The position numbers and the translations under genes are program-made. This document shows, piece after piece, positions 8,764 to 25,373 of a DNA stretch of 64,000 bases. The first letter of the stretch is position 1; each line of letters opens with the position of its first letter. The notes under the pieces are model-generated. The model saw only the letters and a list, made by a program, of their open reading frames with translations. It was not told the origin of the DNA and searched no databases. The DNA lies in assembly GCA_947086655.1 (NCBI GenBank), contig CAMTZM010000003.1:1-64000 (forward strand), given 5' to 3'. Source of the stretch: an uncultured Eubacteriaceae bacterium (lineage in GTDB: Bacteria; Bacillota; Clostridia; Lachnospirales; CAG-274).

Positions 8764-9447
8764 TTATTTTGTAATTGTCTCAAAGTTATTTAAAAATTCT
8801 CCTGTAAGAGGCATGCCATAGTATACATTATTTAAGTCCTCGGCTGTTTCAAGGCTTTTAATATAAGCCATAATGTGATTACAGTATGTAGTTTGAGATA
8901 TAATATACTCGGCTGCTTTGTTGGCTATTAAATTAAAATCGCTTATAGAAAAAAGAGTACACATTTCACCGTCAGCATGATAAGGAACTTTAGTTTCATT
9001 GTTTAAGTTGCCTATACTTATTTGAGAGGCAAGTCCATTTATATTTATTTGGTCTTCTAAAGTCAATGAAAAATGTTTTTTCTCACCATTTTCCAAATCT
9101 ACATCAATTCCGTTATAAATATGGTTTTTACATTCTTGTTTAATTTCGCTGATTTTTTTATCAATTAATTCATTAATTGTTGGTTCTAAAAGTTTCCTTG
9201 CCTCCTCATAGTCTGAAACAGCGAGTCCGTTATATTTTAAAATATTATCTGTATCAAGTTTATGGCATTCGTAATCCAAACTTTTTCTTTCAAGTTCCGA
9301 TATAAGTCCATTTAATTCCATATCGTCATATACATATTGTATAATATCTGAATTAGTTATCACCTTATTTGAAGTTGTCAAGTTTTTATATTTAACGACA
9401 TATTTGTTTATAATAATTATACCATTTTCAACATAATAATTTATCAT
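8764..9447 (-). CDS. DUF4376-type tail-fibre-associated protein
   Basis: A 227-residue protein. The C-terminal 110 residues match the DUF4376 pattern: a coiled-coil lead KISEIKQECKNHI, then IDVDLENGEKKHFSLTLEDQ, VPYHADGEMCTLF and a terminal helix. This domain is usually encoded next to phage tail fibres and is thought to aid fibre assembly or attachment. The N-terminal half (residues 1-90) is not recognisable. It is the last gene of the late operon, 17 bp after the fibre gene, with AAAAGGAGAAAAG before the ATG. Confidence 0.75.
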   Translation of the reverse strand: MINYYVENGIIIINKYVVKYKNLTTSNKVITNSDIIQYVYDDMELNGLISELERKSLDYECHKLDTDNILKYNGLAVSDYEEARKLLEPTINELIDKKISEIKQECKNHIYNGIDVDLENGEKKHFSLTLEDQININGLASQISIGNLNNETKVPYHADGEMCTLFSISDFNLIANKAAEYIISQTTYCNHIMAYIKSLETAEDLNNVYYGMPLTGEFLNNFETITK

Positions 9448-9464: not shown

Positions 9465-11591
9465 TTATAAAGATATTTCTGTTATTGTACTTTCGCTTAC
9501 AACATTTGCAGTTTCAACATTATCGTATGCATCCCAGCCTCTCCCAATAAATATTAGGTTTATTTCGCAGGATGTATCGGAACTTTGTGTAAAATAAACG
9601 TCTATATACTGGTCTGGTGTTCCGTATTTTGTAACTAATCTTATTTTAGTTATGCAGTCGTTAAAAGAGGAGTGGGTAATTTTTGTTATTTTATTATTTC
9701 CGGAGCTTGAACTGTATTGCTGTGCTGCTGAAAATACGGTAGTGCTGTTTTTGCCGAAAACTCCTCCGTGCATAATAAAAATACCTCCGCAGGCGTCTCC
9801 TTTGCTATGTATGATTCTATACCAATTACCGGCTGTTGGAGTAAGTGACAGTATTTTATTAAATCCCAATTCGGAACAGCCTAAGTACAGTTTTTTCCAG
9901 TCGTTATCAATACGTCTTTTAAATATATATTCTGTATCTCCATCTGGTATAAACATTTGAAAAGGAGTTCCTACGGTATTATTTACATATAAAGCGCCGT
10001 GATGTGATGCTGGATTATTTGTTCCGACTGTTGTTTTTATATTATATATACCTGTATTAGTAAGATTATTCCAATTAACATTTGATGTAATATTAGATGT
10101 ACTTACAAAATCGCTTGCGTGTTTATTGTCTACTGTATCGGCGTTTCCTCCGTTTGCCGGGAAACTTTCTGGTAAATTTGTTATTTGGCTTATAGTATGT
10201 GTATGTTCTTTATTGGCTTTGCCGTCAGCTAAATCGTATGCTTTTTTTAAAGAGTTAGCAGTTGCCGCCATAGTTTTGCTTGTGCTTGAGGTACTGTCTG
10301 TAAGCTGTACAATACCTTTATATTCTGTTGATGCTTGAATAAGCTGAGGGTTTAATATTTTAAGATATGTACCATCCCATACAACTGTATAAATTCCGTT
10401 ATTTCTAACCCAAAGGTTACTAATTGGAATAGTTGTAAAACCTGAACTTGATATTGATGGAAAATAAATATTTTTAGCTCCTAAATTATTTATATTAAGG
10501 GTACTTTCATTTGTGTCTCCATATGTATGCGCTTTAATATTAAGAGGTATATTTTTTACATCATTCCAGCTTTGAACTCCTTCTATGCTGACTGTTCTTA
10601 TTGTTGTAGAAGCTGATGTTTCAGAAAATACGGTTGTAGAGAGTTTACTTTTTAATGCTGTTTTGTTTATATTTTCCACATTTTCGGCAGCTGCAAAATA
10701 TTCAGGAGGCTTACCGTCTAAAGTGTTTGCATTTCCATAATCAGATATATTATTCCATTCGCTCCATTTTCCATTTTTAGCTGCTCTTATATACATTTTA
10801 GCTTGTGAGAAAGGCATTGCTATTTGAGTGCCTGAGCCGTTATTATATGGGAAAAACATAATATGCCAATAATTTGAGTCAGATTTATTTGTTTCAGGTA
10901 CAACATTTTCTGAATTAGTAAATGTAATATAAGCTTTTTCAAAACCGGCGTTATTTAAGTCTTCATCTGTAAAATAAACTCCTGATGTAACAAAACTGTT
11001 GTAGTTTTTTCCGTTAAGTTTGTTAGAATCCCAAGCATACTCTGAATAACTTACAGTTACTTTTCCTTCATTTCCTATTTTCAAATCGTCTAAATCTGTT
11101 ATATCGCTTTTCAGATGATTATGTCTGCTTTTACATAGAGAATCTGAATTGTGTACAGTCCATTGCGGATTTGGGGCATAATCCTCATCGCTTTCAAATT
11201 CGGTTTTAACATTAAGTGTGCTGTTTACAAATATTATATCGTTTTCATCGGCGTATAGTGTTATATACTCATAAATAGTATTTTTTTCAATTTTATAGGA
11301 ATTACTAAGTAAATGAAGACCTGTTTTATCATCATCTGGAATTTTAAAAGCGCATGGATATTCACATTCAAAAGCCTCTTTTAAATTATTAAATATTTTA
11401 TATTCCAAAAAATCATTTGCGTGTTTTCCATCTAATGTATCAGCATTTCCGCCGTCTTTATTTTTAGCTATTGTATCAATTTCCTTCATATTTTGGTCTA
11501 TAATATCAAAATTACTGTTAAATACGTCAACATTATAAAAATCTTCTTGTGAATCTTTTCTAAGTCCATAATTTTGGGTGAGTTCAGCCAT
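9465..11591 (-). CDS. Tail fibre protein with pyocin-knob-like modules
   Basis: A 708-residue fibre. The N-terminus (NYGLRKDSQEDFYNVDVFNSNFDIID) is the usual baseplate-attachment start of Firmicutes fibres. The motif GNADTLDGKHA(N/S)DF recurs near residues 48, 290 and 480. Two knob-like modules with TSGVYFT..W and NTGIYNI..DWKKLYL lie near residues 205-285 and 510-570. The C-terminal 120 residues form a distinct receptor-binding-type tip. It should determine which cells the particle binds. It begins right after the xkdU-like gene. No chaperone-type self-cleaving tail is obvious. Confidence 0.85.
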   Translation of the reverse strand: MAELTQNYGLRKDSQEDFYNVDVFNSNFDIIDQNMKEIDTIAKNKDGGNADTLDGKHANDFLEYKIFNNLKEAFECEYPCAFKIPDDDKTGLHLLSNSYKIEKNTIYEYITLYADENDIIFVNSTLNVKTEFESDEDYAPNPQWTVHNSDSLCKSRHNHLKSDITDLDDLKIGNEGKVTVSYSEYAWDSNKLNGKNYNSFVTSGVYFTDEDLNNAGFEKAYITFTNSENVVPETNKSDSNYWHIMFFPYNNGSGTQIAMPFSQAKMYIRAAKNGKWSEWNNISDYGNANTLDGKPPEYFAAAENVENINKTALKSKLSTTVFSETSASTTIRTVSIEGVQSWNDVKNIPLNIKAHTYGDTNESTLNINNLGAKNIYFPSISSSGFTTIPISNLWVRNNGIYTVVWDGTYLKILNPQLIQASTEYKGIVQLTDSTSSTSKTMAATANSLKKAYDLADGKANKEHTHTISQITNLPESFPANGGNADTVDNKHASDFVSTSNITSNVNWNNLTNTGIYNIKTTVGTNNPASHHGALYVNNTVGTPFQMFIPDGDTEYIFKRRIDNDWKKLYLGCSELGFNKILSLTPTAGNWYRIIHSKGDACGGIFIMHGGVFGKNSTTVFSAAQQYSSSSGNNKITKITHSSFNDCITKIRLVTKYGTPDQYIDVYFTQSSDTSCEINLIFIGRGWDAYDNVETANVVSESTITEISL

Positions 11592-12128
11592 TTAAAAACC
11601 CCTTTCAATCAAATCATTTTGAATACTTAAATGAGAAAAATTTTTTAATTTTGAATGTTTCAAAGGTTTAAAAAACTCATGTATATTTTTAAAAACAATA
11701 TTTATAACCATATTAGCTGGAATCATTTTATCAAGTATTTCCTTAACTTCACTTAAAGCCGTATTATCCATATTTAAAAGTCTTACATAAATCATATAAT
11801 CGTTATGTTTTACAAATAAGAAAAAGTTATCTTTTCCGCACACTATACAAAGCTGTTTTGAAAGGTTAATTATAGTATAAGGCAATTTATCGGTTATTCT
11901 TATATAGAGAGCAATTCTTCTTTGTTCAATATTTTTTTTGCCTTTTTTTAGTCCCATTATTTTTTCATATCTTTGTACGCTTTCTTCTCCGGCATAAAGT
12001 ACATATTGGTCTAAAAAAGCTTGATTAATTTGAGTTTTAAGTTTATCAATAAAAAAATCTTCAGCATCAAAAAGTTTTTTAAATTCCTCAATATTTTGTA
12101 AAAATTCCGGAAGGTATTCTATAAGCAA
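11592..12128 (-). CDS. Baseplate protein, XkdU/YmfQ-like (DUF2313)
   Basis: A 178-residue protein with the DUF2313 layout: an N-terminal helix LLIEYLPEFLQNIEEFKKLF, a central R-rich turn YEKIMGLK..EQRRIALYIR near residue 65, and an (I/V)VCGKDNFFLFVKHNDYMIYVRL strand segment. This family forms part of the contractile-tail baseplate wedge next to baseplate J. It starts one base after the J gene ends and is followed immediately by the fibre. Length is normal for the family. Confidence 0.8.
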   Translation of the reverse strand: MLIEYLPEFLQNIEEFKKLFDAEDFFIDKLKTQINQAFLDQYVLYAGEESVQRYEKIMGLKKGKKNIEQRRIALYIRITDKLPYTIINLSKQLCIVCGKDNFFLFVKHNDYMIYVRLLNMDNTALSEVKEILDKMIPANMVINIVFKNIHEFFKPLKHSKLKNFSHLSIQNDLIERGF

Positions 12129-12129
12129 A

Positions 12130-13215
12130 TTAATTCACCTCAACTTTGTAGTTATTTATAATTAATTCTTTCATCACTGGAATATAGTCAATATCAAGTA
12201 TTAAATTATCAAATGAGTCAGAATTATTAATTATAATAGAGGATATAGCTTTAATGCCGTTAATATTAAATATATTTGTTCCTATACGCATAGCTATAAT
12301 TTCTGTATTTTCAGAATCAGCCCATTTAGCAGCTAATTCTTTCATATAATCATTTATTTCATTAATAACATATTCTGAAATATCTTCTAATTCATAACCA
12401 TTTTCGTATGTAAGTTCAATATTTACATTAATGTCATATTCTCTTACTCCAACAACTGTTACCTTATGTCCGATAGGAGCGAATCCGTCTCCGTTTCCTG
12501 TTGTTTTTTCAGGGTCAGTTATTTCTTTCACTTCTTTTATAAATTCTTCAGAAGGTGTTGTATAACCACTTGATATAATAATAATTTTAACAGTGCCGCC
12601 GCCGTTAAAAACCGGTATAATTTTACAGCCGCCCACTCCATTTATAGAGTTAATTTTTTCAATGTAATCTTTTTTATTACCTCCAAAAGCAAGGGAGTTA
12701 AAGCTGTCAAAATATCTTTGTCTAAAGTTTTCGGTAGTTTCCTCGTCTTCACCGGTTATTATAACATCTGTTATAACAGCGTATGTAAGCCCCTCTATAT
12801 TATCAAGCGGAAGTAAATTTCCAAACGCTCTATGTCCGGCTGTTCCTTTTGTTTCGCATACAAGTTTATAGCAGCCGTTTTCTATTTTTTCGTCTGCAGA
12901 AAATATAAGGTTATTAATTGAAAACCTTGAGCCAATAGGAATATTTATATTAAAAACACCTTTCATAACGGCATAAGAGGATTGTTTTGGGCTGAGACCT
13001 CTTTCAGCGGCTCGTTTAATAAGGTATTCTCTTCCGGCGGTATCGGCAAAAGTTTGATTAAGGAGGTTATCAAGTGAAATATACATTTGCGCAAGTTCTG
13101 CACAAGCGGGAGCAAGAGCGTCATAAATGACGCTTCCCTGTCTTTTGTCAACATTTGAAGGAACTAATGACAATGCTTTTTTAATTATTGATTCAAATGT
13201 TTGTTCTTCATACAT
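12130..13215 (-). CDS. xkdT: Baseplate J-like protein, XkdT
   Basis: A 361-residue baseplate J/gp47-type protein. The start MYEEQTFESI at 13215 is chosen because its ATG overlaps the preceding stop (TAATG) and GGGAGG lies about 10 nt upstream. Hallmarks are VDKRQGSVIYDALAPACAELAQMY near residue 20, AAERGLSP near 70, FNINIPIGSRFSI near 90, GTAGHRAFGNLLPLDNIEGL near 130 and ETTENFRQRYFDS near 165. It forms the wedge that triggers sheath contraction. It lies between the xkdS-like and xkdU-like genes, as in PBSX. Confidence 0.9.
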   Translation of the reverse strand: MYEEQTFESIIKKALSLVPSNVDKRQGSVIYDALAPACAELAQMYISLDNLLNQTFADTAGREYLIKRAAERGLSPKQSSYAVMKGVFNINIPIGSRFSINNLIFSADEKIENGCYKLVCETKGTAGHRAFGNLLPLDNIEGLTYAVITDVIITGEDEETTENFRQRYFDSFNSLAFGGNKKDYIEKINSINGVGGCKIIPVFNGGGTVKIIIISSGYTTPSEEFIKEVKEITDPEKTTGNGDGFAPIGHKVTVVGVREYDINVNIELTYENGYELEDISEYVINEINDYMKELAAKWADSENTEIIAMRIGTNIFNINGIKAISSIIINNSDSFDNLILDIDYIPVMKELIINNYKVEVN

Positions 13216-13625
13216 TAAATATTTACCTCCCATTCAAATTCTTCTGTACCAAAAATGGAGCGCACGTTAAATTTAACTTCAAGTGCGTTTTTATCTATAT
13301 ATGAGTCTGAAAAAACGAAATTATAAACATCTTTTATTCTGTCGTCAACGCTTAGAGCGTCTTTTATTCTGTTTGGAATTTCAGCTTTTACAAGTTCACG
13401 GCTTTTTCCTATAAGGTCGTTAAGTTCTACGCCGTAATTAAAATCATATATTTCATAAGCGTATCTGTCAGTCATAAGAGTTTTATATACAGTTTGTTTT
13501 ATACTTTCAATTCCATTAATATAATCTTCTATTTTATCTTTTTCATTTTTAATTTTATAAGTAAATGAAGGTCTTGTTTCAATTTCAAGTTCAGAGTTAA
13601 ATTTATTGCTTTTAATAGGAATCAT
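13215..13625 (-). CDS. xkdS: Tail lysozyme-fold/wedge protein, XkdS (DUF2634)
   Basis: A 136-residue DUF2634 protein. Seen are FTYKI near residue 20, VYKTLMTDRYAYEIYDFNYGVEL near 45, LIGKSRELVKAEIPNRIKDAL near 70 and a C-terminal beta segment. It corresponds to the gp25-type baseplate wedge component. Its stop overlaps the start of the baseplate J gene. In PBSX an xkdR (DUF2577) gene lies between xkdQ and xkdS; here only a 42-bp gap separates them, so xkdR is absent. Confidence 0.8.
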   Translation of the reverse strand: MIPIKSNKFNSELEIETRPSFTYKIKNEKDKIEDYINGIESIKQTVYKTLMTDRYAYEIYDFNYGVELNDLIGKSRELVKAEIPNRIKDALSVDDRIKDVYNFVFSDSYIDKNALEVKFNVRSIFGTEEFEWEVNI

Positions 13626-13667: not shown

Positions 13668-14678
13668 TTAGTAATATTTAAAAGTTCCATTATACACCTC
13701 GCTAAATGTAAGTTCTAAAATATGTTCGTTATCAGAAAAGCGATGTATGCAGTTTTCAGTAAGAAGCATGCTGTCTACGCTAAGTTCGGCAAGATTATTT
13801 ATTTTTATATATACAGTACTTCCGCCTCGTATATCAATTTCTCCGTTATCTGTACCCATACATATAATGTTAAGTTTTTTTCTTTCACGGCATTTTTGAG
13901 ACAATATTTCTTCAGCAAGCAATTTTGCTTGTTTAGAGTTATAATCGGAATTAATTCTTTTAAAATATTGCAAAACACCCCATTTTTTTTGTGCCTGTGA
14001 ATTTTCGGCAACAGTAATACTGTCAATTTTAGTTTTTTTATTTTTTCTCCAAAGTTTTACTTTGTTATATGTATCGCTGTCAATTTCCGTTTTATAGTTA
14101 TAATCTATCATTGATGTAGTGTCGGCTAACAAAAGCGGCATAACAAGGTTTTTAACATCTCTTACGCATAGTTTTCCGGCGTCGTCATATACAGTATAAT
14201 TTTTTGCGTTATTTTGTTTTGTAATATCAAGGCAGCTTAAAATAATTTGAATTAATGATTTTCCCTGAAAGTTTTGTTTATTAATAATAAATGCTGTATC
14301 GTCTATAATTCCGGTTTCTATTTTATAATCGGTACAGATTTTTTTTATAACATCAGATGCTTTTTTATAGTATACATAATAGTTATCTTTATTTTTAAGA
14401 TACCTTAATTGGTCATAGCACATAACGGAAATAATTTGGTTTTTATCTCTTTCTTTTGAAAAAACATAACCATGAAAAATAAATTTGTCATTATATTTAA
14501 GCCATACAGAGTCTCCCTCAAAAAAAGAAAATTCTTTAATTGAATTAAAAGGTTTTGCCACATTAAATTTTAATACAGATGCTTCGTTAATTGTTCTTTG
14601 AAGTATAACTTCACCTATACAAACATCACTGACGTCAAAAATATTTTCATTGTATTCAATATAAATTTTAATTTCCAT
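13668..14678 (-). CDS. xkdQ: Tail hub protein, XkdQ-like
   Basis: A 336-residue phage late-control-D/hub family protein. Family features are the N-terminal ANEASVLKFNV-like strand (INEASVLKFNVAKPF, residue 30), FHGYVFSKERDK near 70, VMCYDQLRYLKNKDNYVY near 85 and a second beta domain with ADTTSMIDYNYKTEIDSDTYNKVKLW near 185. It forms the central trimeric hub under the tube, above the spike. Length is close to PBSX XkdQ (about 330). It is preceded by a 217-bp gap that contains the inverted-repeat element. Confidence 0.85.
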   Translation of the reverse strand: MEIKIYIEYNENIFDVSDVCIGEVILQRTINEASVLKFNVAKPFNSIKEFSFFEGDSVWLKYNDKFIFHGYVFSKERDKNQIISVMCYDQLRYLKNKDNYYVYYKKASDVIKKICTDYKIETGIIDDTAFIINKQNFQGKSLIQIILSCLDITKQNNAKNYTVYDDAGKLCVRDVKNLVMPLLLADTTSMIDYNYKTEIDSDTYNKVKLWRKNKKTKIDSITVAENSQAQKKWGVLQYFKRINSDYNSKQAKLLAEEILSQKCRERKKLNIICMGTDNGEIDIRGGSTVYIKINNLAELSVDSMLLTENCIHRFSDNEHILELTFSEVYNGTFKYY

Positions 14679-14762
14679 AAAAGTCTCCTTAATAGTTAAT
14701 ACTAAACACCATTCAAATTTTTATTTATATATTAAATAGTGTTTAGTATAAGATTATGGATT

Positions 14763-14841
14763 TATAGTCAAAACACTTGAAAAATGAACAAGTTTGGAGA
14801 CTGAAAATCATTTTTGTTTATTTTCAAATGATTTGACTATA
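14763..14841. repeat. Small inverted-repeat element, copy 2, inside the tail operon
   Basis: The 21-base arms at 14763-14783 and 14821-14841 are inverted copies with two mismatches; the right arm ends ATTTGACTATA. They share ends with the element at 6183-6232. The element sits between the xkdP-like and xkdQ-like genes. An outer pair TACTAAACAC/GTGTTTAGTA (about 14699-14749) lies just beside it. Confidence 0.6.
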
Positions 14842-14895
14842 TAAGTAAATTAATTTTTAGGAAATACCATGTTTATAATTTTTAATAATGTTTTT

Positions 14896-15555
14896 TTAAG
14901 GCAGTAAAAGAGTTGTTCCGACACTAATAACATCGGGGTTATCAATACCGTTAAGTTTAGCGATTTCATTATATTTTGAGCCGTCATTAAGTTCTTTTCT
15001 TGCTATTTTCCATAAAGAATCGCCTTTTCTAACAACATAAGTTTTTTTGTTTTCCTTTGAGGTTCTTATTTTTTCGGAAAATGCTTTATCATTTGATACA
15101 TCTACTTTTTTTATTTCGGGACACCTATATTCCATAAGTGTTAAATCAATCCAAAATTCACCTTCTTCTCCGGCATATTCAGTAATAGAATAATCTTCAA
15201 CAGATACAAGAGTATTTGTTTTAAATATTTCCGAATTATCCGAAGCGTTTCTAAGTATTATAAATCTTACAGGTGTTTTGCCTTCTTTAAATAGTCTTAG
15301 TCTGTTAAGGTAATAAAGCGGTTCAAAAATAATCCCTAATGTATTAAAAGCAGGGGAGTCTTTTTTTGGAAGAATTGCTTTAAATTTATAAAGTCTAAGA
15401 GGTGCGCTTTTCAAAATAGATGTATCTCCGGAGCTTATAAGGTTAATTACCTTAGAATTACCTTTATAGCTTGTTTCAAGACTTTCAGGAGCTACCGGAA
15501 GATTAATTCGGCTTGTTTCGTCTTTATCATAACAAAGAGTAAAATAATACATCAT
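14896..15555 (-). CDS. xkdP: LysM-domain tail protein, XkdP-like
   Basis: A 219-residue protein with an N-terminal tail domain (residues 1-150) containing INLPVAPESLETSYKGNSKVINLISSGDTSIL, and a C-terminal LysM (residues 170-219, TYVVRKGDSLWKIARKEL..LLLP). LysM binds peptidoglycan or closes the tube end; in PBSX-type tails XkdP sits with the hub. Its ATG overlaps the stop of the tape-measure gene (TAATG). Length is near the PBSX homologue (about 235 residues). Confidence 0.85.
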   Translation of the reverse strand: MMYYFTLCYDKDETSRINLPVAPESLETSYKGNSKVINLISSGDTSILKSAPLRLYKFKAILPKKDSPAFNTLGIIFEPLYYLNRLRLFKEGKTPVRFIILRNASDNSEIFKTNTLVSVEDYSITEYAGEEGEFWIDLTLMEYRCPEIKKVDVSNDKAFSEKIRTSKENKKTYVVRKGDSLWKIARKELNDGSKYNEIAKLNGIDNPDVISVGTTLLLP

Positions 15556-16307
15556 TAATGAATCCCCTCCGCTGCTGCGTGTACAGCCTCATTAAGCATT
15601 TTTGATACATCGTTTATAACTTTTCTAACATCAGCCGTTTCATGAACATCTCCGAATGACAAGTTAATTTTAGGAGTAACGGTAGTATTTGAAACTTTAT
15701 TTACAACGCCGCCTTCTGATATACTTTCAAAATTAATTTGATTATTTTTCATTAAAAAGCTGTTTTGTTTTTCGAGTTCATTTATATACTCAAATTGATT
15801 TTTTACTTCTTCAGGCGTTATAAAGTCCTTATCATTTATAATATTAAATTGGTTTAAATTATTAATATCATTTAAGTTATCAATATCTTTTGTATTATTA
15901 AGATTATAATTATCAAAGCTATAATCTTTTTCGATTTCTTCATTTTTCATAATGTCAGTATCTTTATTGTTTAGAATTTCAGGATTTACTGTAATGTCTT
16001 TTACAACATCCTCAATACATTTTATAACGCCGTTATTAACACTGTTTTCATAATTAAACTCATAATTATTATCATAATCATATTTATAATTATCTAAATT
16101 ATTTGGAGAAACAGAAAAAGTTTCTTCTGTTTCCCCGTTATTTTTATTTTGATTATATACATAATTTTCCTGTTGTAATATGTCATTTACAGGATTAAGT
16201 TCAATAAGGCTGTTAAAATCAAGATAAATTTGATTATATTCATACAATACATCGGCGTATAAATTAACATCGGCGCTGCTTCGTAAAAAATCATAATCAT
16301 CTTCCAT
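15555..16307 (-). CDS. Miniature tape-measure-like protein
   Basis: A 250-residue protein in the tape-measure position, between the tail chaperone and XkdP. The last 50 residues contain VTPKINLSFGDVHETADVRK and an amphipathic helix VINDVSKMLNEAVHAAAEGIH. This matches the C-terminus of many Firmicutes tape measures as I recall them. The first 190 residues are low-complexity and rich in Asn, Asp, Tyr and Glu, with no long hydrophobic helices. Usual tape measures of contractile Xkd systems exceed 800-1300 residues. The gene is intact, with AAAAGGAGGG 10 nt before ATG. It is either a genuinely short ruler or a degenerate one. Confidence 0.6.
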   Translation of the reverse strand: MEDDYDFLRSSADVNLYADVLYEYNQIYLDFNSLIELNPVNDILQQENYVYNQNKNNGETEETFSVSPNNLDNYKYDYDNNYEFNYENSVNNGVIKCIEDVVKDITVNPEILNNKDTDIMKNEEIEKDYSFDNYNLNNTKDIDNLNDINNLNQFNIINDKDFITPEEVKNQFEYINELEKQNSFLMKNNQINFESISEGGVVNKVSNTTVTPKINLSFGDVHETADVRKVINDVSKMLNEAVHAAAEGIH

Positions 16308-16844
16308 TTTTAGCAGCCCTCCTTTTCTGTTTTACATATTCATCAATAAAAGCTATTACGACTGCCTTTTGCAAAATATCCATATTAATAAAATCTCGTG
16401 GAAGAATATTAAATTTAATGAGGGCGAAGTAAGCGTAGCTTGTTTCTCCATCGCCCCCATCAATTAGTTTTTTACTTCTTCGACCAATTCTTCGATATTC
16501 TTTTTAAAGCCGGAAAGTTCTATTATGCTTCTTGCAAGTGTAGAGGCTTCACCGGCAAGCAATACGTTATCAAGGTACTGTTCGGGTGTTTTTAATCCAA
16601 GAGAATTTATACTTTTAGCGTCTTTAAAATTAGGTTCTAAAGTATTTTCAATAATAATACATCTGTTAAAAGCGGCTGAATTTCCCCCGCATTTTTTTCT
16701 TATTTCCTCGAACACACTTTGTCTCATAGCTTTTATTTTAAATTTCAAAGAATTTCCGTTTTCGTCTTTGAATCTTTCAGATACATTAACAAAAGCCGTT
16801 ACATTATCGGCTTTTCTGCCGTTAAGGAACTCTTGCAAGTTCAT
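16297..16844 (-). CDS. Tail assembly chaperone, -1 frameshift product (GT-like)
   Basis: Predicted 182-residue product made by -1 frameshifting at the end of the gene at 16464-16844. The heptamer A_AAA_AAC (16473-16467) is in the correct phase and directly precedes the TAA stop. After the shift, 56 more codons are open (LIDGGDGETSYAYFALIKF..LPRDFINMD..KAVVIAFIDEYVK), ending at TGA 16299-16297, inside the start of the next gene. The extension looks like the T domains of tail chaperones, with LPRDF and a final amphipathic helix. Frameshifted G-GT pairs are standard at this position in long-tailed phages. Not experimentally shown here. Confidence 0.8.
16420..16475 (-). promoter_or_regulatory. 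Programmed -1 ribosomal frameshift signal
   Basis: Slippery heptamer AAAAAAC at 16473-16467, 8-nt spacer, then an 8-bp stem: GGGGGCGA (16458-16451) with TCGCCCTC (16427-16420), seven Watson-Crick pairs and one G-U. A small AAGC/GCTT hairpin sits in the loop. Spacing and stem strength are what -1 frameshift sites need. In this AT-rich genome such a GC-rich stem stands out. Confidence 0.8.
16464..16844 (-). CDS. xkdN: Tail assembly chaperone, short (G-like) form, XkdN
   Basis: A 126-residue XkdN-type protein. It carries MNLQEFLNGRKADNVTAFVNVSERFKD at the N-terminus and a helical core with KAMRQSVFEEIRKKCGG and the LLAGEASTLARSIIELSGF segment. It keeps the tape measure soluble and guides tail-tube polymerisation, and is not part of the final particle. 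It lies between the tube gene and the tape measure. Its last codons form the slippery sequence for the longer frameshift product. Confidence 0.85.
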   Translation of the reverse strand: MNLQEFLNGRKADNVTAFVNVSERFKDENGNSLKFKIKAMRQSVFEEIRKKCGGNSAAFNRCIIIENTLEPNFKDAKSINSLGLKTPEQYLDNVLLAGEASTLARSIIELSGFKKNIEELVEEVKN

Positions 16845-16857
16845 TTAAATCACTTCC

Positions 16858-17322
16858 TTATTCTCCTATAACTTTATCAAATGAGTTTCTCACCTCAACG
16901 CCGTTAAATGTAAATTCTATTTCTTCGTCAAGTTCTGTTGAGTCAATATCGATTTTGGCAATATCTACTGTATTAATGTTAACTTGTTTTAAAATAACAG
17001 TTTGTCTGCCTATTTCGCTTGATGGGTCTTCATTTTCAATAAGCATTTCAAAATATGTATCTACGCTTTCGTCAATATATTTAACCATCATTTCTCTAAA
17101 TTTTGATGTACAATAATACATTTTCATTGAGCCTGTACCCCTCCAGCCAGTTGCTTTATGTTTAGCACCTGTTTGCCCGAGCACTTTAATTTCTGATTTT
17201 GTTTTTTCAACTTTTGCTTTAATATTTTTAACATAAATCATATCTTCGACACTGCCGTTAATAGTTGCCACACATCTTCCGGTTGCTCCGTTAATGGCAT
17301 CCCATGCTTTAAGAGTTGACAT
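16858..17322 (-). CDS. xkdM: Tail tube protein, XkdM (DUF2001)
   Basis: A 154-residue tube protein. It begins STLKAWDAINGATGRCVATINGSVEDMIYVKNIKAKVEK and carries KVLGQTGAKHKATGWRGTGSMKMYYC near residue 50, typical of the DUF2001 family, then a beta-rich C-terminus ending EIEFTFNGVEV. It polymerises into the rigid inner tube inside the sheath. It lies 23 bp after the sheath gene. Length is as in PBSX XkdM (about 148). Confidence 0.9.
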   Translation of the reverse strand: MSTLKAWDAINGATGRCVATINGSVEDMIYVKNIKAKVEKTKSEIKVLGQTGAKHKATGWRGTGSMKMYYCTSKFREMMVKYIDESVDTYFEMLIENEDPSSEIGRQTVILKQVNINTVDIAKIDIDSTELDEEIEFTFNGVEVRNSFDKVIGE

Positions 17323-17345: not shown

Positions 17346-18656
17346 TTATTCAACAACGCAAGTCATATAAAGCTTGTCCATAGCTCCTACGGGTTCAACA
17401 AATTCGCTGACAATTACATCGCCTTTTTCAGTACCTTTTTCGACTGTAATATTTGTTGGGTCAAAATTGGTAATAGCTTCTATTGCCTGTAATGTTTCAT
17501 GATATTTAACAAGTTCAGTTTTAAATATATCCCTTCCAACAGAGTTATTTTGCTGTTTGCCTAAATAATAGTCGTTAAAAATCCTTGCCGTATCGTTTGC
17601 GATTGCGTCAAGCACACGAATTACTTGATTATTTGAAAAGTCGGAATTTTTATCGCTTGAAAATTCGGTAAATGAATTAATATCTTTAAGTACACGGCAG
17701 CCTTTTTTATCGTTATAGAATACAAATTCACCGTTTTTAACAATATTTTTAAGCTGGCTTTTTTTATAATTTCCGTTAAATTCAAGTTCGCCGTCATACA
17801 AAGCGTTTGTAAGGCTTTCATTAACTTCAGCGCCTGCTGTTTTTCCGGCAACCCAATAAACGGCGTTTTTTGTATTTTTAACGCTTATAATACCTTCATG
17901 GTTTGCCTGAGGATAATCATATAATACACAAGATATTTTATAGCCCTCATCGTCTCTAAGCCTTTTTGTAAAGCTTGTAAAAAGGGCTTTTGTTGTATTA
18001 TCTTCACCGGCATAGCATATTGTTGTAAAGTCATAAGCCTCTATTTTATCAAGAAACTCTGAATAATCAGAGCCTTTTGCGCTTAATTCGCTGCCTCCTG
18101 ACAAATTAGTTCCTAAAGAAACGGCAGGTTTTCCCTGTCCGTTAAATGAAACAAAGTCGTTATTTATAAGTTCATTAAAATTAGATATACTTTGTTCATC
18201 AACGCTTGTAGTATTAGTATCTACAATTGTTTTAACAATAAAGTTTCCTTCTGTGTCTATATCGTTTTCAATAACAATTTTTATATCGTTTCCTCTTGTG
18301 CCGGGGTTAATTGCCGTAACGGTAAGGGCATTATCTCCTGTGCCTATAACAGCAGATGCTTTTGTACCGCTTGATATTCTGTAAACAAGAGCCTCATTTG
18401 CACCTATAAAAATTTCTCTTAAAAATTGCATTTCGTCTGAGTTGTAGTTATAGCCGAAAATACTAAAGCAATTTTTCTGAAAATCCTCAAGGCTCACTCT
18501 TACGACTTCGCCTGTTTTTCCCCAGCCGCCTTCATAAGCTACGGCTACTATTCCTCTTTCTCCTAAGTTTCCAAGCGCTCTTGCTTTTGATACAAAATTA
18601 ATATAAGCGCCCGGCAATACTTTATTTTGTGTAGTAAAAGTTCCTCCTGCTGCCAT
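17346..18656 (-). CDS. xkdK: Tail sheath protein, XkdK
   Basis: A 436-residue contractile sheath subunit. It opens GGTFTTQNKVLPGAYINFVSKA, has GERGIVAVAYEGGWG near residue 35, and the C-terminal sheath domain with SFTEFSSDKNSDFSNNQVIRVLDAIANDTARIF near 330 and the final VSEFVEPVGAMDKLYMTCVVE strand used for handshake contacts. Its presence shows this is a contractile (myovirus-like) tail. The ATG overlaps the stop of the small upstream gene (TAATG). Length is close to PBSX XkdK (466). Confidence 0.93.
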   Translation of the reverse strand: MAAGGTFTTQNKVLPGAYINFVSKARALGNLGERGIVAVAYEGGWGKTGEVVRVSLEDFQKNCFSIFGYNYNSDEMQFLREIFIGANEALVYRISSGTKASAVIGTGDNALTVTAINPGTRGNDIKIVIENDIDTEGNFIVKTIVDTNTTSVDEQSISNFNELINNDFVSFNGQGKPAVSLGTNLSGGSELSAKGSDYSEFLDKIEAYDFTTICYAGEDNTTKALFTSFTKRLRDDEGYKISCVLYDYPQANHEGIISVKNTKNAVYWVAGKTAGAEVNESLTNALYDGELEFNGNYKKSQLKNIVKNGEFVFYNDKKGCRVLKDINSFTEFSSDKNSDFSNNQVIRVLDAIANDTARIFNDYYLGKQQNNSVGRDIFKTELVKYHETLQAIEAITNFDPTNITVEKGTEKGDVIVSEFVEPVGAMDKLYMTCVVE

Positions 18657-18821: not shown

Positions 18822-19280
18822 TTAATGTCCTCCCATAATTAATCTTTCCATATAAATTGGTTCTTTGTCGTCAATAACATGAAAATCATAGCTTACAAAA
18901 AAGTTAAGTACACAATCTCCGTTTTCATAAGTACTGTTAAGTCCGCTTGTCAATACACCTCCGCTTTTTTTCATAGACATATTGCGGCCTTTAACTTTAT
19001 GTCCGTCAATTTCTATTTCATTAAGAGCGGAAGATAGTTTTTCATACATATCATTCATATTAAAGTTTTTTTTGTTTAATGGAGGAAAATATAAAATGTC
19101 AATAGGGTTAATAAGTCTTCTTCTTTTGCCTAAAGCCTGTTTTATACTTGCCTCAGATGCTTTTATAAAAAAGCATGGTTCATTAAAGCCTTGTTTTACT
19201 TCGTCTGTATAGATAACTATATTTTCCCCGAAATAGAGGGTTAAATTTTTAGCTACTGCCTGTACAATTTTTTCTGTCAT
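18822..19280 (-). CDS. Tail terminator / tail completion protein, XkdI-position
   Basis: A 152-residue protein beginning MTEKIVQAVAKNLTLYFGENIVIYTDEVKQGFNEPCFFIK, the standard opening of the phage tail-terminator family in Firmicutes. It ends in a beta strand FFVSYDFHVI. I place the start at 19280, where CGCCTCC on the plus strand (GGAGGCG) lies 7 nt before the ATG; an upstream in-frame start at 19298 would bury that site. It joins head and tail or caps the tube. It has a 1-bp gap to the next small gene. Confidence 0.75.
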   Translation of the reverse strand: MTEKIVQAVAKNLTLYFGENIVIYTDEVKQGFNEPCFFIKASEASIKQALGKRRRLINPIDILYFPPLNKKNFNMNDMYEKLSSALNEIEIDGHKVKGRNMSMKKSGGVLTSGLNSTYENGDCVLNFFVSYDFHVIDDKEPIYMERLIMGGH

Positions 19281-19321
19281 AGAAATACGCCTCCACAATT
19301 TTAATTAACAAGCGTCTTTTA

Positions 19322-19675
19322 TCATGCGAAGCTATCAAAAAGGCTTAAAATAATTTCCTGATGAGTATTATAAAAAGCACTTTCACCGCTTTTCTGATAA
19401 ACCTTTGTTTCCCCGCATTGAGTAACTTCAATTTTAGAGCCGGATTTTATAGGCTTATCACAATAAGTAATAAGTTTAATTTCCTGCCTTATAAAAGAGG
19501 CGCTTTTACCTTGAACTGCTGAATTAAGGCTTTTATATGACAATCTGCATGAAACATCTTTATATACAAGCTTTTCTTTAAATTCAGTAATTCCTGTTTC
19601 TTTATTTATAAAAGGAATAAATTCATAAACGTTCATTTTTCCCGTAAAAAGCTTTTCTATATCATTTTTAATCAA
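19322..19675 (-). CDS. Head-closure protein, XkdH-like
   Basis: A 117-residue protein in the XkdH/DUF3599 position. It has a short helix then a beta-barrel body: NVYEFIPFINKETGITEFKEKLVYKDVSCRLSYKS, a loop with SASFIRQEIKLITYCDKPIKSGSKI, and a C-terminal EIILSLFDSF. I propose a TTG start at 19675, since GGAG lies 8 nt upstream; the earlier in-frame GTG at 19696 overlaps the previous gene. It likely seals the portal and connects head to tail. Confidence 0.65.
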   Translation of the reverse strand: MIKNDIEKLFTGKMNVYEFIPFINKETGITEFKEKLVYKDVSCRLSYKSLNSAVQGKSASFIRQEIKLITYCDKPIKSGSKIEVTQCGETKVYQKSGESAFYNTHQEIILSLFDSFA

Positions 19676-19689
19676 TATATGCGCTCCTT

Positions 19690-20076
19690 TCACCACACAA
19701 TAGCTCTATGGGCAATAATTTCGTCATTTCCGCATGTCATTAGTTTTTGTATAAGCAAGTCTTCATAACTTCCTTTTGACTGACAAGTTGAAGTATCATA
19801 TATAACGGAAACATCACCTTCTTTTAGTTCTTTTAGTGCACCGTTATCACATGCTGCTATACTAAAATCGCTGTCTATTCGCTTTTTTATAAATAAGAAT
19901 CCTCCTGCTGCTCTGTCAATTAAAATACCTTTAAGTACTTTTGGCACGCAATCAACTCCGATAGACTGGCATATATAGCATTGCACTCTTTCTATTTCCA
20001 TTTCTATAAGCGGATAATCTTTTGAAGAAACGTCATAACCTATGTTTTTTATTCTTTTTATAACCTCATCACGCAT
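19690..20076 (-). CDS. Head-tail connector (YqbG/gp6-like)
   Basis: A 128-residue helical protein between the capsid and head-closure genes. The N-terminal region IKRIKNIGYDVSSKDYPLIEMEIERVQCYICQSIGVDCVP resembles the DUF3199/gp6-type adaptor, and LKGILIDRAAGGFLFIKKR follows. The adaptor ring sits directly under the portal. It lies 5 bp after the capsid gene and overlaps nothing. Family assignment rests on position and helical pattern more than on a sharp motif. Confidence 0.65.
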   Translation of the reverse strand: MRDEVIKRIKNIGYDVSSKDYPLIEMEIERVQCYICQSIGVDCVPKVLKGILIDRAAGGFLFIKKRIDSDFSIAACDNGALKELKEGDVSVIYDTSTCQSKGSYEDLLIQKLMTCGNDEIIAHRAIVW

Positions 20077-20081: not shown

Positions 20082-21134
20082 TTAACCTCTTGATATAATT
20101 CTTGCTATACTTATAGCCTTATGGTCAATATATTCTTTTTTAGAGCCGCTTTCACCGTTATTTACGAGTTCCCAGTTACTTCCGTCCATAAGTTCATCAT
20201 TTGTAGGCGAAAGAGTTTGTTGATTTTTCTTTACATAAGAAATTCCAAAAGGAGCAAAACATTTTCTTGTTCTTACATATAATGTATCTTCGCCGCCGTT
20301 TGTTTTTGGGTCTCGGCTCATTTCAAAAGGCACTTTTGCACCTATATCCTCATAATCTATGGAGCCTTTTCCTAAAATATATGTAGTATAAACAGCTTTT
20401 CCGTCAGAACCTATTTCAGTAGGCATACTATCGTCTATAAGAACTGTTCTTCCATTCCATGTAGCTAAGGCAAGGTCTCTTTGTATACCATATTTATCTG
20501 TTTGTTTTAAATAAGACAAAAGGTTTATATTTTCAAGGTTTGTTGCCACAGCGGAGTGCATAATAGCGGCTGTATAATTGTTTTTATTGTCACCTGAAGC
20601 TTTTTGTATAGCCGTATTAAGTGTTGTTGGACCTACTAAGCTGTCGTCTCCTGTTTCAGAAGATATATCAAAAGTATGTTCATCTACGAATTTAAGATTT
20701 TCAGTTCCTGTCATATTAAAAATACCGTTTAAAATTGCAAGCAGTGTATTTTGGTCAACTTCGTCAATGTAATCACTTACTTGAAGAGCGACGTTATCCA
20801 TAAATCTTGCGCCGCCTGTAACGTCGTATGCGAAGTCGCTTTCAAGCCATGCCTTAGCACGGCCGATTACAACAGCACCTCTTTCAAATGTTTGAGTAGT
20901 ATCGGCTGTTATGTCTGTTTGTCCGTCGTAATTAAGTACTTCTCCGCCTATTCTTCCATACATAGGCAAAATAGCGTAAGCAGCTCCGGTATTTTGGCTG
21001 AACGCTCCTTTTATTTCAGAGTTTCCTTTAAAAATTCCTGAGCGAATCAGTTCATTTTTTTTTGTTTTTGGAAGCACGTCTATATACGCTCCAAAGGCTG
21101 AAGGGTTAAAAGTCTTACTATTAAATTTACTCAT
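20082..21134 (-). CDS. xkdG: Major capsid protein
   Basis: A 350-residue capsid protein of the PBSX XkdG/encapsulated HK97-like type. It carries NPSAFGAYIDVLPKTKKNELIRSGIFKGNSEI near the N-terminus, GRAKAWLESDFAYDVTGGARFMDNVA near residue 95, IMHSAVATNLENINLLSYLKQTDKYGI near 190 and the C-terminal YVRTRKCFAPFGISYVKK. It forms the icosahedral shell. It follows the scaffold gene, with AAAGGAGAAA before the ATG. An intact capsid gene argues against a headless tailocin. Confidence 0.9.
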   Translation of the reverse strand: MSKFNSKTFNPSAFGAYIDVLPKTKKNELIRSGIFKGNSEIKGAFSQNTGAAYAILPMYGRIGGEVLNYDGQTDITADTTQTFERGAVVIGRAKAWLESDFAYDVTGGARFMDNVALQVSDYIDEVDQNTLLAILNGIFNMTGTENLKFVDEHTFDISSETGDDSLVGPTTLNTAIQKASGDNKNNYTAAIMHSAVATNLENINLLSYLKQTDKYGIQRDLALATWNGRTVLIDDSMPTEIGSDGKAVYTTYILGKGSIDYEDIGAKVPFEMSRDPKTNGGEDTLYVRTRKCFAPFGISYVKKNQQTLSPTNDELMDGSNWELVNNGESGSKKEYIDHKAISIARIISRG

Positions 21135-21156: not shown

Positions 21157-21519
21157 TTATATATTTTCGTTATTCATAATTTGGCACATTTCTGTATATG
21201 TCATTTTTTTTAAATCTTTTGGTGCTGTTTCTTGGGCTTCTTGAGGAGCTGCGCCTTTTACATCGTTTTTCTCAAAAAGGAAAGAACTGTCTTTTTCTTT
21301 TAGCAGTTTATCAATTTGAGAATTTATATCGCCTTTTTTAGCCGCATCAAAATCCACAAGTGCTCTTGCCGCCTTTATATTTTTTGCTCCGGCTTTTATA
21401 AGTGCTGTATCAACATCAAAATTTACTAAAGCGTTATTAAGTTCTTTTTTATGTATATCAAATATTTTTTTTGATGTTTCTTCATCAACTCCCAATTCCA
21501 TAATATCTTTAATTTCCAT
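21157..21519 (-). CDS. Short GP20-like scaffold protein
   Basis: A 120-residue protein ending in the C-terminal pattern of phage GP20 scaffolds: DTALIKAGAKNIKAARALVDFDAAK..IDKLLKEKDSSFLF. GP20 proteins usually have a long central coiled coil and about 180-200 residues; here the coil is nearly absent, the N-terminal part being only about 30 residues. The start at 21519 is chosen because AGGAGGG lies 7 nt upstream and the ATG two codons earlier is too close to it. It is expected to guide capsid assembly. Confidence 0.65.
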   Translation of the reverse strand: MEIKDIMELGVDEETSKKIFDIHKKELNNALVNFDVDTALIKAGAKNIKAARALVDFDAAKKGDINSQIDKLLKEKDSSFLFEKNDVKGAAPQEAQETAPKDLKKMTYTEMCQIMNNENI

Positions 21520-21605
21520 AGGCATACCCTCCTTTCTAAAATTTATTTTGTATTTAAAAATACAATTTCAGGTTTTTTTATTAAATTATGTGGTATTTTT
21601 TTATT

Positions 21606-23033
21606 TTAATTTTTCAAATTAAGTATTTGAGGGTTTTGAGATTTTTTATTTTTTTCATATTGTTCGTCAAGTCTTTTTAATTCAGCGGTTATATCTTTAA
21701 CCCATGGATGTTGTTCAATTATGCTTTTTTGCGACAATATTTCAGTTGATTTTATACAATTTTCAATACTTTCCGTTTCATTAATAAGTATATCTCTGTT
21801 AAAAACAATATCTGCCTTACAGTTAGGAAATGTATTTTGTCTTATTTTTATGAATGTTCCTATTAGTTCTATTATTTTGCTTATAGACCATTGAAATTCA
21901 CATTCCATAATGTTTGCGTCAAGGTCGATATCGCTGTAAACAGATTGTATATTCATTCTTGTAACATTGCCTGTAAGTCTGTCGTCTTTTGAGTCGATTC
22001 CCCTTGCATTTTCCATAATGCTTCTTTTAAGCATATCCGCTATAATTTTATAATTACCGCTGTCTACATTAACTTTAAGTGTTTGTATATCTCCGGCAGC
22101 GCCGTCTATACTCTTTACTTTAACAGCGCCGTATTTTGCGAGATTACATCTAAACTCCTCAAGGTTTGTACCATCATAATTTTTCAATACAAGTATTGTG
22201 TTTCTTGCATCTTCCTGCATGTTATTCATAAAATCGCTCTCAATAATATTGAGAGAATCCTGAAGTTTTTTAACTCTTGAAATAAGCGGTATTTCTTTTG
22301 AGTTAAGTTTAAAAGGAATAACAGGTACATAATTTAGATTAAAAACATTGCCCAATGTATCGGAAAGGTAATATTCACTTTCCTCAAAAACAAGAGAGGT
22401 ATTTTTAATAAAATACCTCTCAATGCCTTTATCAGTATAAATTTCTGCTTTTTCCTTAATAATTTCCCTATCGCCCTCATAAACCGACACATAAAAAAGT
22501 CTTACTATACAATCAAGTTCTCTATGTTCGCTGTCCTTATAGAAAGGAATAATGTTATAAGGCTCAAACCTTTTAAATTTAAAGTCAACTCCGTTTTTGG
22601 TATATATATAAATATATCCGCTGCCGCAGTTTAAACAATCTTCTCCAGTATCTTTTAAAATTCTGAAAAAGTCATTATTAAAAATACTATTAAGCAATTC
22701 TAAAAGTTCAGTATTTTCGCATTTAATTGTAAAAGGTTTTGATAAAAGATAGCTGCATTTTTGGTCAACAAGTCTTGCGTATTGATTATCAACGATTTTA
22801 TTGTTAGGAAGATTTGACACTTCCGACAAATTTCCATCTTTTCCTATAACTGTGCGCTTTCTTTCGAGAATATCATGTATACCCTTATAATATCTGTCTC
22901 CGTCAATCATAGTTTTTCTTTTTTTACTTGTTTTAAATTTAAGTATTTCCTTTTCAATAACCTGCAATCGGGTTAATGAATTAGATTTAATAATTTCGTT
23001 TATTCTTTGGGTTTCGCTTCCTGCAAAAATCAA
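21606..23033 (-). CDS. xkdE: Portal protein (SPP1 gp6 / XkdE type)
   Basis: A 475-residue portal. Family motifs are the N-terminal helix NEIIKSNSLTRLQVIEKEILKFKTSKKRKTMIDGDRYYKGIHDIL, NNKIVDNQYARLVDQKCSYLLSKPFT near residue 90, IIPFYKDSEHRELDCIVR near 170 and the crown region NARGIDSKDDRLTGNVTRMNIQSVYSDIDLDAN near 355. It begins with TTG (GGGAG 9 nt upstream). It forms the 12-mer DNA gate for the terminase. No Mu gpF-like minor head gene follows, which many relatives have. Confidence 0.88.
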   Translation of the reverse strand: MIFAGSETQRINEIIKSNSLTRLQVIEKEILKFKTSKKRKTMIDGDRYYKGIHDILERKRTVIGKDGNLSEVSNLPNNKIVDNQYARLVDQKCSYLLSKPFTIKCENTELLELLNSIFNNDFFRILKDTGEDCLNCGSGYIYIYTKNGVDFKFKRFEPYNIIPFYKDSEHRELDCIVRLFYVSVYEGDREIIKEKAEIYTDKGIERYFIKNTSLVFEESEYYLSDTLGNVFNLNYVPVIPFKLNSKEIPLISRVKKLQDSLNIIESDFMNNMQEDARNTILVLKNYDGTNLEEFRCNLAKYGAVKVKSIDGAAGDIQTLKVNVDSGNYKIIADMLKRSIMENARGIDSKDDRLTGNVTRMNIQSVYSDIDLDANIMECEFQWSISKIIELIGTFIKIRQNTFPNCKADIVFNRDILINETESIENCIKSTEILSQKSIIEQHPWVKDITAELKRLDEQYEKNKKSQNPQILNLKN

Positions 23034-23051: not shown

Positions 23052-24296
23052 TTAATTAAAGCTGAATGTATCGCCTTTAATAAAATCCTCAAGGGCATAT
23101 CGCATAGCGTCAAGAAGGTGGTTAAAACTGTCAATAGGCTGATTGATAAGTTTACCGAAATTATTTTTTTCCCATGTGTAGTTATTAATTTCTGTAATAA
23201 AGTTTACACATTTAGGATGAATAATAATTTTAAAACCCTGAATATATTGAATACCGTTTAACACACTGTCTTTTCCTTTTCTTGCTGCTCGTATATTACA
23301 AAGACCGAGTTGTCTAAGTTCTTCAATAGACTTAGGTTCAGCGCTGTCGGCTTTAATTTTTTCTTTAGCGAATTTCATATTTACGATGCGTTTATAAATC
23401 ATTTCATTTGTAAGCGCTTTTTCGTAAAGTTCATCGAATACAAAAATTTCTTTGTTAATACAATCGACGATACCGGCGAAAAAAGCGGTAGGGTCGTTTG
23501 TATATCCGAAGTCAAGTCCGAATGCGGTTTTAACAGATTTTCTTTTAAGTATAAAATCAACGGAAAATTCTTTTTCTTCAAAGTTTTCATAGATAAGTCC
23601 GTCTGATATGCCCCATTCTCCGAGTCCGGCTACTCTGTATCTTTTAGGATTATGAAGTTTCATTTGTTCAAATACTTTTTTATCTGCATCATCAAGAAAT
23701 TCGTTAATCATATAGTTAGTAGTTTTTGCTAAAACGTCCGAATTTTTGACATCAAAAAAACGCCTTTTTATCCAATGGCGTTCATTCCAAGGGTTTAAAG
23801 TAAGAGTAATTTGTTTAAAAAGACCCTCAGGCACTTCACCCCTAATTGATTCATCAAGTATATTGAAATCGTCTTCGTTTGAAATTTCATAAGCTTCTTC
23901 AATCCAAAGCCAGCAAAGAACTCCTTTTTCTACTGTAATTGAAGTAATTTTCAAACCGTCGTCAAGTCCTCTAAAGTATATTTTTTGTCCGGTAGGTTTA
24001 TAAGTCATTTCAAGAGGCGAGCGTTTACATTCCCATTTATCTTTTACATTAAGCCTTTCAATAGCCCAAAGCAGTTCTGTATAACAGCTGTCTTTAATAG
24101 TTGAAAATACTTTTCTTACAACAAGAGTGTTTGCGTCTTTGTATTTCATCATTCTAAAAATTATATTAATAGCCGTAGTTTTGCTTTTTTTGCTTGCTCG
24201 TGAGCCTTTGCATATTCTGTAACGACCTTTAAAGTTACAGAAGTCTGAATATCCTTTTCCTATAATTTCCTGCAAAGAAATTATTTTTTTATTCAT
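23052..24296 (-). CDS. xtmB: Terminase large subunit (PBSX XtmB family)
   Basis: A 414-residue packaging motor. The ATPase part has a degenerate Walker A KGSRASKKSKTTA near residue 32, common in this family, and Walker B LCWLWIEEAYEI near 130, followed by LTLNPWNERHWIKRRFF near 165. The RNase H-like nuclease has FGLDFGYTNDPTAFF near 258, KADSAEPKS near 310 and a final FNHLLDAMRYALED near 400. All key acidic residues are present, so it looks active. The start at 24296 is preferred because AAAGGAC lies about 8 nt upstream; it overlaps the TerS remnant by 8 bases. Confidence 0.92.
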   Translation of the reverse strand: MNKKIISLQEIIGKGYSDFCNFKGRYRICKGSRASKKSKTTAINIIFRMMKYKDANTLVVRKVFSTIKDSCYTELLWAIERLNVKDKWECKRSPLEMTYKPTGQKIYFRGLDDGLKITSITVEKGVLCWLWIEEAYEISNEDDFNILDESIRGEVPEGLFKQITLTLNPWNERHWIKRRFFDVKNSDVLAKTTNYMINEFLDDADKKVFEQMKLHNPKRYRVAGLGEWGISDGLIYENFEEKEFSVDFILKRKSVKTAFGLDFGYTNDPTAFFAGIVDCINKEIFVFDELYEKALTNEMIYKRIVNMKFAKEKIKADSAEPKSIEELRQLGLCNIRAARKGKDSVLNGIQYIQGFKIIIHPKCVNFITEINNYTWEKNNFGKLINQPIDSFNHLLDAMRYALEDFIKGDTFSFN

Positions 24297-24474
24297 TAAC
24301 ATCGTCCTTTATAACAACAGGATAGTCTTTCTGTTCCTTTTCATCAACGTATGTATATTTTCTTGCAAGAAGTTCTGCTGCTTTCATTCTGTCTTTAATT
24401 GAAATTTCTTCCCCCTCCCCCCTCATAACCTGTGTAAGATAAGCCATAACCTCCTTTGCTGAAGCTACTTTCAT
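24289..24474 (-). CDS. Terminase small subunit remnant, lacking the DNA-binding domain
   Basis: A 61-residue protein (MKVASAKEVMAYLTQVMRGE..SIKDRMKAAELLARKYTYVDE..PVVIKDD) matching only the C-terminal half of Terminase_2-type small subunits. The usual N-terminal helix-turn-helix of about 80-100 residues is missing. AAGGAGGTG lies 9 nt before the ATG at 24474, and a promoter-like TATAAT lies about 37 bp upstream of that, so the short form appears to be the real product rather than a frameshifted tail of a longer gene. It overlaps the TerL gene. It may keep oligomerisation or TerL contact without sequence-specific pac recognition. Confidence 0.75.
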   Translation of the reverse strand: MKVASAKEVMAYLTQVMRGEGEEISIKDRMKAAELLARKYTYVDEKEQKDYPVVIKDDVNE

Positions 24475-24510
24475 ATTAATAAGCACCTCCTTCTTTTTTA
24501 ACTCATTTAT

Positions 24511-24887: not shown

Positions 24888-25373
24888 TTATTTAGAAGAT
24901 AATTTAAGTTTTTTATCGCTAAAGCTGCTTTCAGCTTGACTTCCGAATTTTTCAATAGCTCTATCATGAATTCTAAAGCATTGTTTTCGGCTTTTATGTA
25001 TAATATCGGGTATATTGTCCCAGCTAAGTCCTTCTTTATATCTCAGTATAATTACTTTTTGTTCGTCGTTTTCGAGGGTACTCATAACGTAGTCTATAAT
25101 TGATTTTTCTTTAAGAGCGTTTTCTATTTCCTTTTCATATTCTTCCATTTGTTTTTCATAAATCATAATTGTTTTAATAACTGTATTTTCTACTCTTGAG
25201 GATATTTGTACGTTTGTTCTTATATAGTCGTAAGAAATTCCAACAGAGTATGAACTGTCGGCGCAAATTTTTTCAAGTTCCTTTATACGTATTGTAAGCT
25301 CTTTACAATAATCAACAACACCGCCCCAGCGTCTAAGCAAAGATTTTATATTTTCCTTTTCTCTTTTATTCAT
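24888..25373 (-). CDS. Sigma-region-4-like late activator (ArpU/Xpf type)
   Basis: A 161-residue protein. Its C-terminal HTH, LENDEQKVIILRYKEGLSWDNIPDIIHKSRKQCFRIHDRAI at about residues 100-140, is of the sigma-70 region 4 / ArpU / DUF1492 type. The N-terminal half is a predicted coiled coil. In PBSX the equivalent Xpf factor switches on the late operon. It is placed just upstream of the late promoter with phased repeats. The start at 25373 (GGTGG 8 nt upstream) overlaps the previous stop; an ATG five codons earlier at 25388 is the alternative. Confidence 0.78.
   Translation of the reverse strand: MNKREKENIKSLLRRWGGVVDYCKELTIRIKELEKICADSSYSVGISYDYIRTNVQISSRVENTVIKTIMIYEKQMEEYEKEIENALKEKSIIDYVMSTLENDEQKVIILRYKEGLSWDNIPDIIHKSRKQCFRIHDRAIEKFGSQAESSFSDKKLKLSSK

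Follow-up and report, generated by a model that had tools for sequence, protein, structure and literature searches.

A very short tape measure protein in a contractile-tail, phage-derived element of gut Clostridia

Introduction

A contractile tail gene module in an uncultured Eubacteriaceae bacterium encodes only 250 residues at the position of the tape measure protein (TMP), where the Clostridioides phage phiC2 has a gene annotated as a 762-aa TMP. Is this gene a genuine TMP, the remnant of one or an unrelated protein, and what kind of particle would it serve? The window analysed here is the whole stretch of 64,000 nucleotides, to which all coordinates refer.

Results

A short gene at the tape measure position has a TMP C-terminus

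The initial annotation had placed a gene of only 250 residues between the tail chaperone and XkdP, and this was confirmed. Positions 15555-16307 of the minus strand hold an ATG-started ORF of 250 aa flanked by an XkdN-like chaperone (Pfam Phage_TAC_5, E 1e-25) and a LysM-containing XkdP homologue; AGGAGGG lies upstream of the start, and the 3' side is coupled to XkdP by TAATG. The TMP-like C-terminus and the low-complexity polar body described at the same time were borne out as well. Residues 208-250 match positions 662-705 of 706 in PHROG 1068, 'tail length tape measure protein' (E 7e-5), and residues 193-250 are 34-36% identical to the ends of 849-967-aa TMPs (E 6e-10 to 3e-9). Profile-profile comparison matched the short C-termini to those of long TMPs (hhalign 96.5%, E 1e-9), the TMPs of genus g6 falling short at 8.9%. 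The protein contains 18.0% Asn and 9.6% Asp, compared with 8.0% and 6.6% in the remainder of the element. Its maximal KD19 value is 0.71, with no membrane segment; PBSX/phiC2-type TMPs typically have a long body that is hydrophobic or helical and carries membrane segments, and this protein has no such body. The gene can be divided as follows.

15555..16307, minus strand: short tape measure protein, 250 aa (position, TMP C-terminus, orthologues)
15558..15731, minus strand: TMP-like C-terminus, residues 193-250 (identity to long TMP ends, PHROG 1068, profile match)
15732..16307, minus strand: polar Asn/Asp/Tyr-rich body, residues 1-192, without membrane segment and predicted disordered (composition, hydropathy, pLDDT)

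Direct searches with the 250-aa protein found no relatives among viral contigs or among 50,697 phage records, and a PDB profile search with it gave no match. The AlphaFold model, built on a thin alignment of 13 sequences, had pLDDT mostly <50 outside the C-terminal helix (mean 44) and was too poor to be usable for a fold search. A random low-complexity ORF was ruled out by the conserved C-terminus and by frames that are open in many genomes. Both the place between chaperone and XkdP and the C-terminal sequence are those of a TMP; judged by its sequence, the 250-aa gene is a genuine, very short TMP.

The short TMP belongs to a phage-derived element with head and packaging genes

The gene is part of a phage-derived element of ~18 kb adjoined by host genes (glycogen synthase, M3 peptidase, a PocR/chemotaxis-like protein, DUF1015 and 2-hydroxyacid dehydrogenase). 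The other features of the element are listed below.

8764..9447, minus strand: DUF4376 protein, present too in g8 and g11 elements (Pfam, gene maps)
9465..11591, minus strand: tail fibre, 708 aa (Pfam Phage_fiber_2)
11592..12128, minus strand: XkdU-like baseplate protein (Pfam Phage_Mu_Gp48)
12130..13233, minus strand: XkdT-like baseplate J protein (Pfam Baseplate_J)
13215..13625, minus strand: XkdS-like sheath initiator (Pfam Sheath_initiator)
13668..14678, minus strand: XkdQ/YqbQ-like hub (Pfam YQBQ)
14896..15555, minus strand: XkdP-like LysM protein (Pfam LysM, PHROG 380)
16297..16473, minus strand: second chaperone frame, via a putative -1 frameshift at A AAA AAC, about 16467-16473 (open frame, conserved slippery site)
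16464..16844, minus strand: XkdN-like tail assembly chaperone (Phage_TAC_5, PHROG 389)
16858..17322, minus strand: tail tube (Pfam DUF2001)
17346..18656, minus strand: contractile tail sheath (Pfam Phage_sheath domains, PHROG 279)
18822..19298, minus strand: tail terminator (Pfam Phage_tail_terminator_8)
19322..20076, minus strand: two head-tail connection proteins (synteny only; no Pfam family over cut-off)
20082..21134, minus strand: major capsid protein (weak Pfam Gp13-like match; 60-73% identity to relatives)
21157..21525, minus strand: short scaffold protein, 122 aa (partial Pfam Phage_scaffold match below cut-off; length comparison)
21606..23033, minus strand: SPP1-type portal (Pfam SPP1_portal)
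23052..24302, minus strand: large terminase (TerL), ATPase and nuclease motifs kept (Pfam Terminase_3 and 3C, alignment)
24289..24486, minus strand: probable small terminase fragment, 65 aa (weak Pfam Terminase_2)
24888..25388, minus strand: sigma-70 region 4-like regulator (weak Pfam Sigma70_r4)
25848..26174, plus strand: divergent XRE-type repressor (Pfam HTH_3)

No integrase, replication or lysis genes were recognised in the element; phage structural genes without recognised integration or replication genes are one trait of gene transfer agents (GTAs). An R-type tailocin or headless injection system was ruled out by the presence of TerL, portal, scaffold and capsid genes. The TerL motifs are, in the alignment, the same as in phages. 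The chaperone gene keeps both the A AAA AAC slippery site and the open second frame, as would be expected if a TMP is still chaperoned. Between XkdP and XkdQ lies a 217-bp gap free of ORFs (14679-14895), and, unlike most relatives, the element has no XkdR/DUF2577 gene. Given the absence of XkdR and of lysis genes, the window element may be partly decayed.

A normal TMP encoded elsewhere had been named from the start as an alternative, and the genome does contain two further TMPs, one of 967 aa on contig C60 and an incomplete one of at least 480 aa on C90. A resident prophage might thus set tail length in trans, leaving the 250-aa protein as an accessory tail protein. However, the C60 ORF lies on a different contig from the element and adjoins its own chaperone, a portal and a distant capsid gene, and many element-bearing genomes gave only a short TMP in a search with a profile that misses g6 and some long TMPs. 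We regard supply in trans as very improbable. The same genome also carries a second, apparently reduced tail locus (L039, G000:C46) with XkdS, Q, R and P and a 134-aa tube protein, in which TMP, chaperone and sheath were not seen.

Short, polar TMPs recur across the host family

Of 48 genomes from the host family, 40 encode a relative of the capsid protein (E <= 1e-60), some of these hits being in ordinary prophages. A 60-73% identical capsid was consequently dropped as a sole marker of the element, being shared by ordinary phages and prophages. TMPs of the related elements measure about 200-470 aa, whereas those of related phages are mostly about 580-1,370 aa long. Short polar TMPs were found in elements of genera g1, g4, g5, g6, g7 and g9, with lengths of 200-312 aa in g6, 210-290 aa in g5/g9, 261 and 404 aa in g7, and 256-470 aa in g4, an almost twofold range within a single genus. 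At one locus (L107) no ATG-started TMP ORF was called and the frame is open for ~260 aa. An element of the same kind on an IMG/VR contig (L271) has an Asn-rich TMP of intermediate length, 634 aa. No long hydrophobic TMP occupies the site in the element orthologues found, which goes against the alternative named in the initial annotation, orthologous loci with a long tape measure. Truncation of a long TMP by deletion in this one strain was ruled out, the orthologues being short in several genera and N-terminal motifs being shared within a genus.

The short TMPs also differ in composition. Their maximal KD19 values are 0.49-1.23, against 1.82-3.45 for long TMPs, and none has a membrane-helix-like segment; they contain few aliphatic residues and are Tyr-rich, and mostly Asn-rich too.

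In g5 and g9, XkdP and the short TMP lie together at a separate chromosomal locus among host genes, the gene order of the main cluster differs, and the flanks of the relocated pair are common to three g5 species. One of two kinds of gene adjoins the pair on its upstream side at loci L067, L068, L063, L073 and L074. An SMC-like AAA ATPase (617 aa; L067 4021-5874) is directly upstream in g9, and a short coiled-coil protein of 172-260 aa takes that place in g5 (L068 5032-5814).

In g11, sister to the window element, and in g8, no TMP gene was found by sequence or by a profile that also misses g6 TMPs; a diverged or relocated TMP is possible in both. The second chaperone frame persists in g11 and g8 despite this. 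Three g11 loci (L124, L125, L126) have an XkdP without LysM and 129-456 bp between chaperone and XkdP, with no TMP there. Lysis genes occur in these relatives, a holin in g11 and a holin plus an amidase in g8; in L112 (g8), which has neither a TMP nor a recognised XkdQ, they follow DUF4376. In two IMG/VR phage contigs with MuF (L264, L266), the usual site holds no TMP, chaperone and XkdP being only about 268 bp apart as measured in L264. Chaperone-to-XkdP distances in g4 span two other genes, and some loci were counted twice, so that TMP lengths were relied on instead of the p-value of that comparison.

Elements lack head parts of related phages

Compared with phages that have related capsids, the elements lack the Phage_Mu_F (MuF) gene between portal and scaffold; the two classes were defined by portal-to-capsid distance, which makes the missing MuF part of the definition and leaves the other differences independent. 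The elements are also without the HK97-gp10-like gene ahead of the tail terminator, and their scaffold is shorter, with a median of 155 aa versus 201 aa in phages (p 3e-13, the rows being related and p-values therefore optimistic). The shorter scaffold may suggest a small head that could not hold the element's own genes.

Related elements track the host phylogeny and show purifying selection

A tree of 11 element proteins from 29 genomes, most of the genomes compared being fragmented metagenome assemblies, was compared with rpoB from the same genomes. The two had 20 of 26 splits in common; shuffling the labels gave no more than 4, and shuffling them within genera no more than 17. For structural genes in six species pairs, drawn from related genera as the window's own genus consists of one genome, dN/dS was about 0.02-0.36. 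The TMP evolved fastest, with dN/dS of 0.21, and 0.77 in a wider pair. The related elements thus show vertical inheritance together with purifying selection, a further GTA trait, and because their splits are congruent with rpoB and dN/dS is well below 1, they appear to be domesticated and mostly vertically inherited. One genome (G021) carries two element copies (L078 and L079), between which dN/dS is low.

These data bear on the possibility that the element is a decaying prophage and its TMP an inactive remnant. Decay would account for the missing XkdR and the ORF-less gap before XkdQ, as well as for the missing TMP in g8 and g11 and the missing XkdQ in g8. It sits poorly with dN/dS far below 1 in the six species pairs, the agreement between element and host trees, frames intact in many species and the preserved TerL motifs, and we consider it improbable.

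With phages included in the phylogeny, the element state was clustered and needed at least three changes. A single clade of all elements was rejected by the AU test; therefore, either several domestications or gene exchange with phages took place. L123 (g7, 404-aa TMP) lies amid g7 prophages, and L114, a g6 locus with MuF and a TMP of 594 aa, groups with g6 elements. Shortness of the TMP is a lineage-wide property of the domesticated element rather than of one odd prophage, and possibly a convergent one.

Discussion

The best reading of these results is a genuine, secondarily shrunken TMP of a GTA-like (or PBSX-like) short-tailed contractile particle. That the gene is the true TMP of a domesticated, phage-derived particle with a contractile tail is, in our judgement, probable. 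By a narrower measure we favour a GTA-like role for this particle, with host DNA packaged inside it; such packaging is suggested by the retained terminase in the absence of genes that would propagate the element's own genome. Support for the genomic part is good; from it we infer particle shape, DNA content and gene transfer. More tentative, and to us slightly doubtful as a whole, is the wider picture of a GTA with a very short contractile tail across most of a gut Clostridia family, split over two loci in two genera, whose TMP has shrunk and shed the body that spans the membrane, perhaps several times in separate lineages.

During assembly, the TMP C-terminus would dock at the baseplate end, and the chaperone and its frameshift product would help to build the tube around the short body. 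The tail would stop after a few rings, at about 30-40 nm with a helical body or up to about 70 nm with an extended one; by comparison, about 115 nm would be expected from the 762-aa TMP of phiC2. A tail far shorter than that of PBSX, as proposed at first, is the simplest consequence of the short TMP. The accompanying figure of under 40 nm stands as one end of the range only, because the rule of 0.15 nm per residue (PMC10194240) assumes an alpha-helix and the polar body is not predicted to be helical. The short TMP probably does not itself form the membrane channel attributed to long TMPs, because it has no membrane-spanning segment.

A PBSX-like killer, a defective phage with DNA in its head that uses its contractile tail to kill relatives and transfers no DNA, would leave the TMP assignment unchanged. 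The window element shares with PBSX the tail module and the pairing of a divergent XRE-type repressor with a sigma-like regulator, by which PBSX is regulated, and tail fibres are present in several genera. However, its TMP is far shorter than that of PBSX (about 1,300 aa) and without membrane segments, the window element has no lysis genes, and g6 elements show no fibre gene after XkdU. We consider killing without transfer unlikely, though it is the leading alternative.

Set against known systems, the GTA-like reading has partial precedents. RcGTA of Rhodobacter capsulatus has a TMP of about 216 residues and a tail of 49 nm (PMC7296036), and it likewise represents a domesticated, vertically inherited structural cluster with a very short TMP and a short tail (PMC7296036, PMC9662315), the tail of the window element being deduced from its genes. 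The RcGTA tail is non-contractile, and its TMP has a long alpha-helix as N-terminal part, whereas the window element has a sheath and a polar, predicted-disordered body; the likeness between the TMPs is in length, and homology is not claimed. FpGTA of Faecalibacterium is also a GTA-like element of gut Clostridia, found as two separate operons in some strains, but is reported to be podovirus-like, with no visible tail and with lysis genes in the second operon (PMC12946183), while the window element has a complete contractile tail module. PBSX-/phiC2-type tails have the same tail gene order with the TMP in the same place, and the sheath is ~41% identical to that of phiC2; phiC2, a complete phage with a 56.5-kb genome, differs in its 762-aa TMP and in having one more head gene, located between portal and scaffold.

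Few lineages are known to have GTAs. In the papers found, their tails are either non-contractile or not visible (PMC9662315, PMC12946183), and the formally recognised GTAs belong to the non-contractile group (PMC9662315). No contractile GTA in Firmicutes/Bacillota was found among the open-access papers searched. If the GTA-like reading is true, a contractile, family-wide candidate in gut Clostridia would be a new GTA origin with many species to compare. The repeated absence of MuF, the gp10-like protein, the tape body with membrane segments and part of the scaffold points to parts that become dispensable once a phage stops spreading its own genome. The natural TMP length variants (about 200-634 aa) could show how a non-helical tape sets tail length. 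The element with the longest of these (L271) is flanked by a divergent XRE gene and an RRXRR-like gene.
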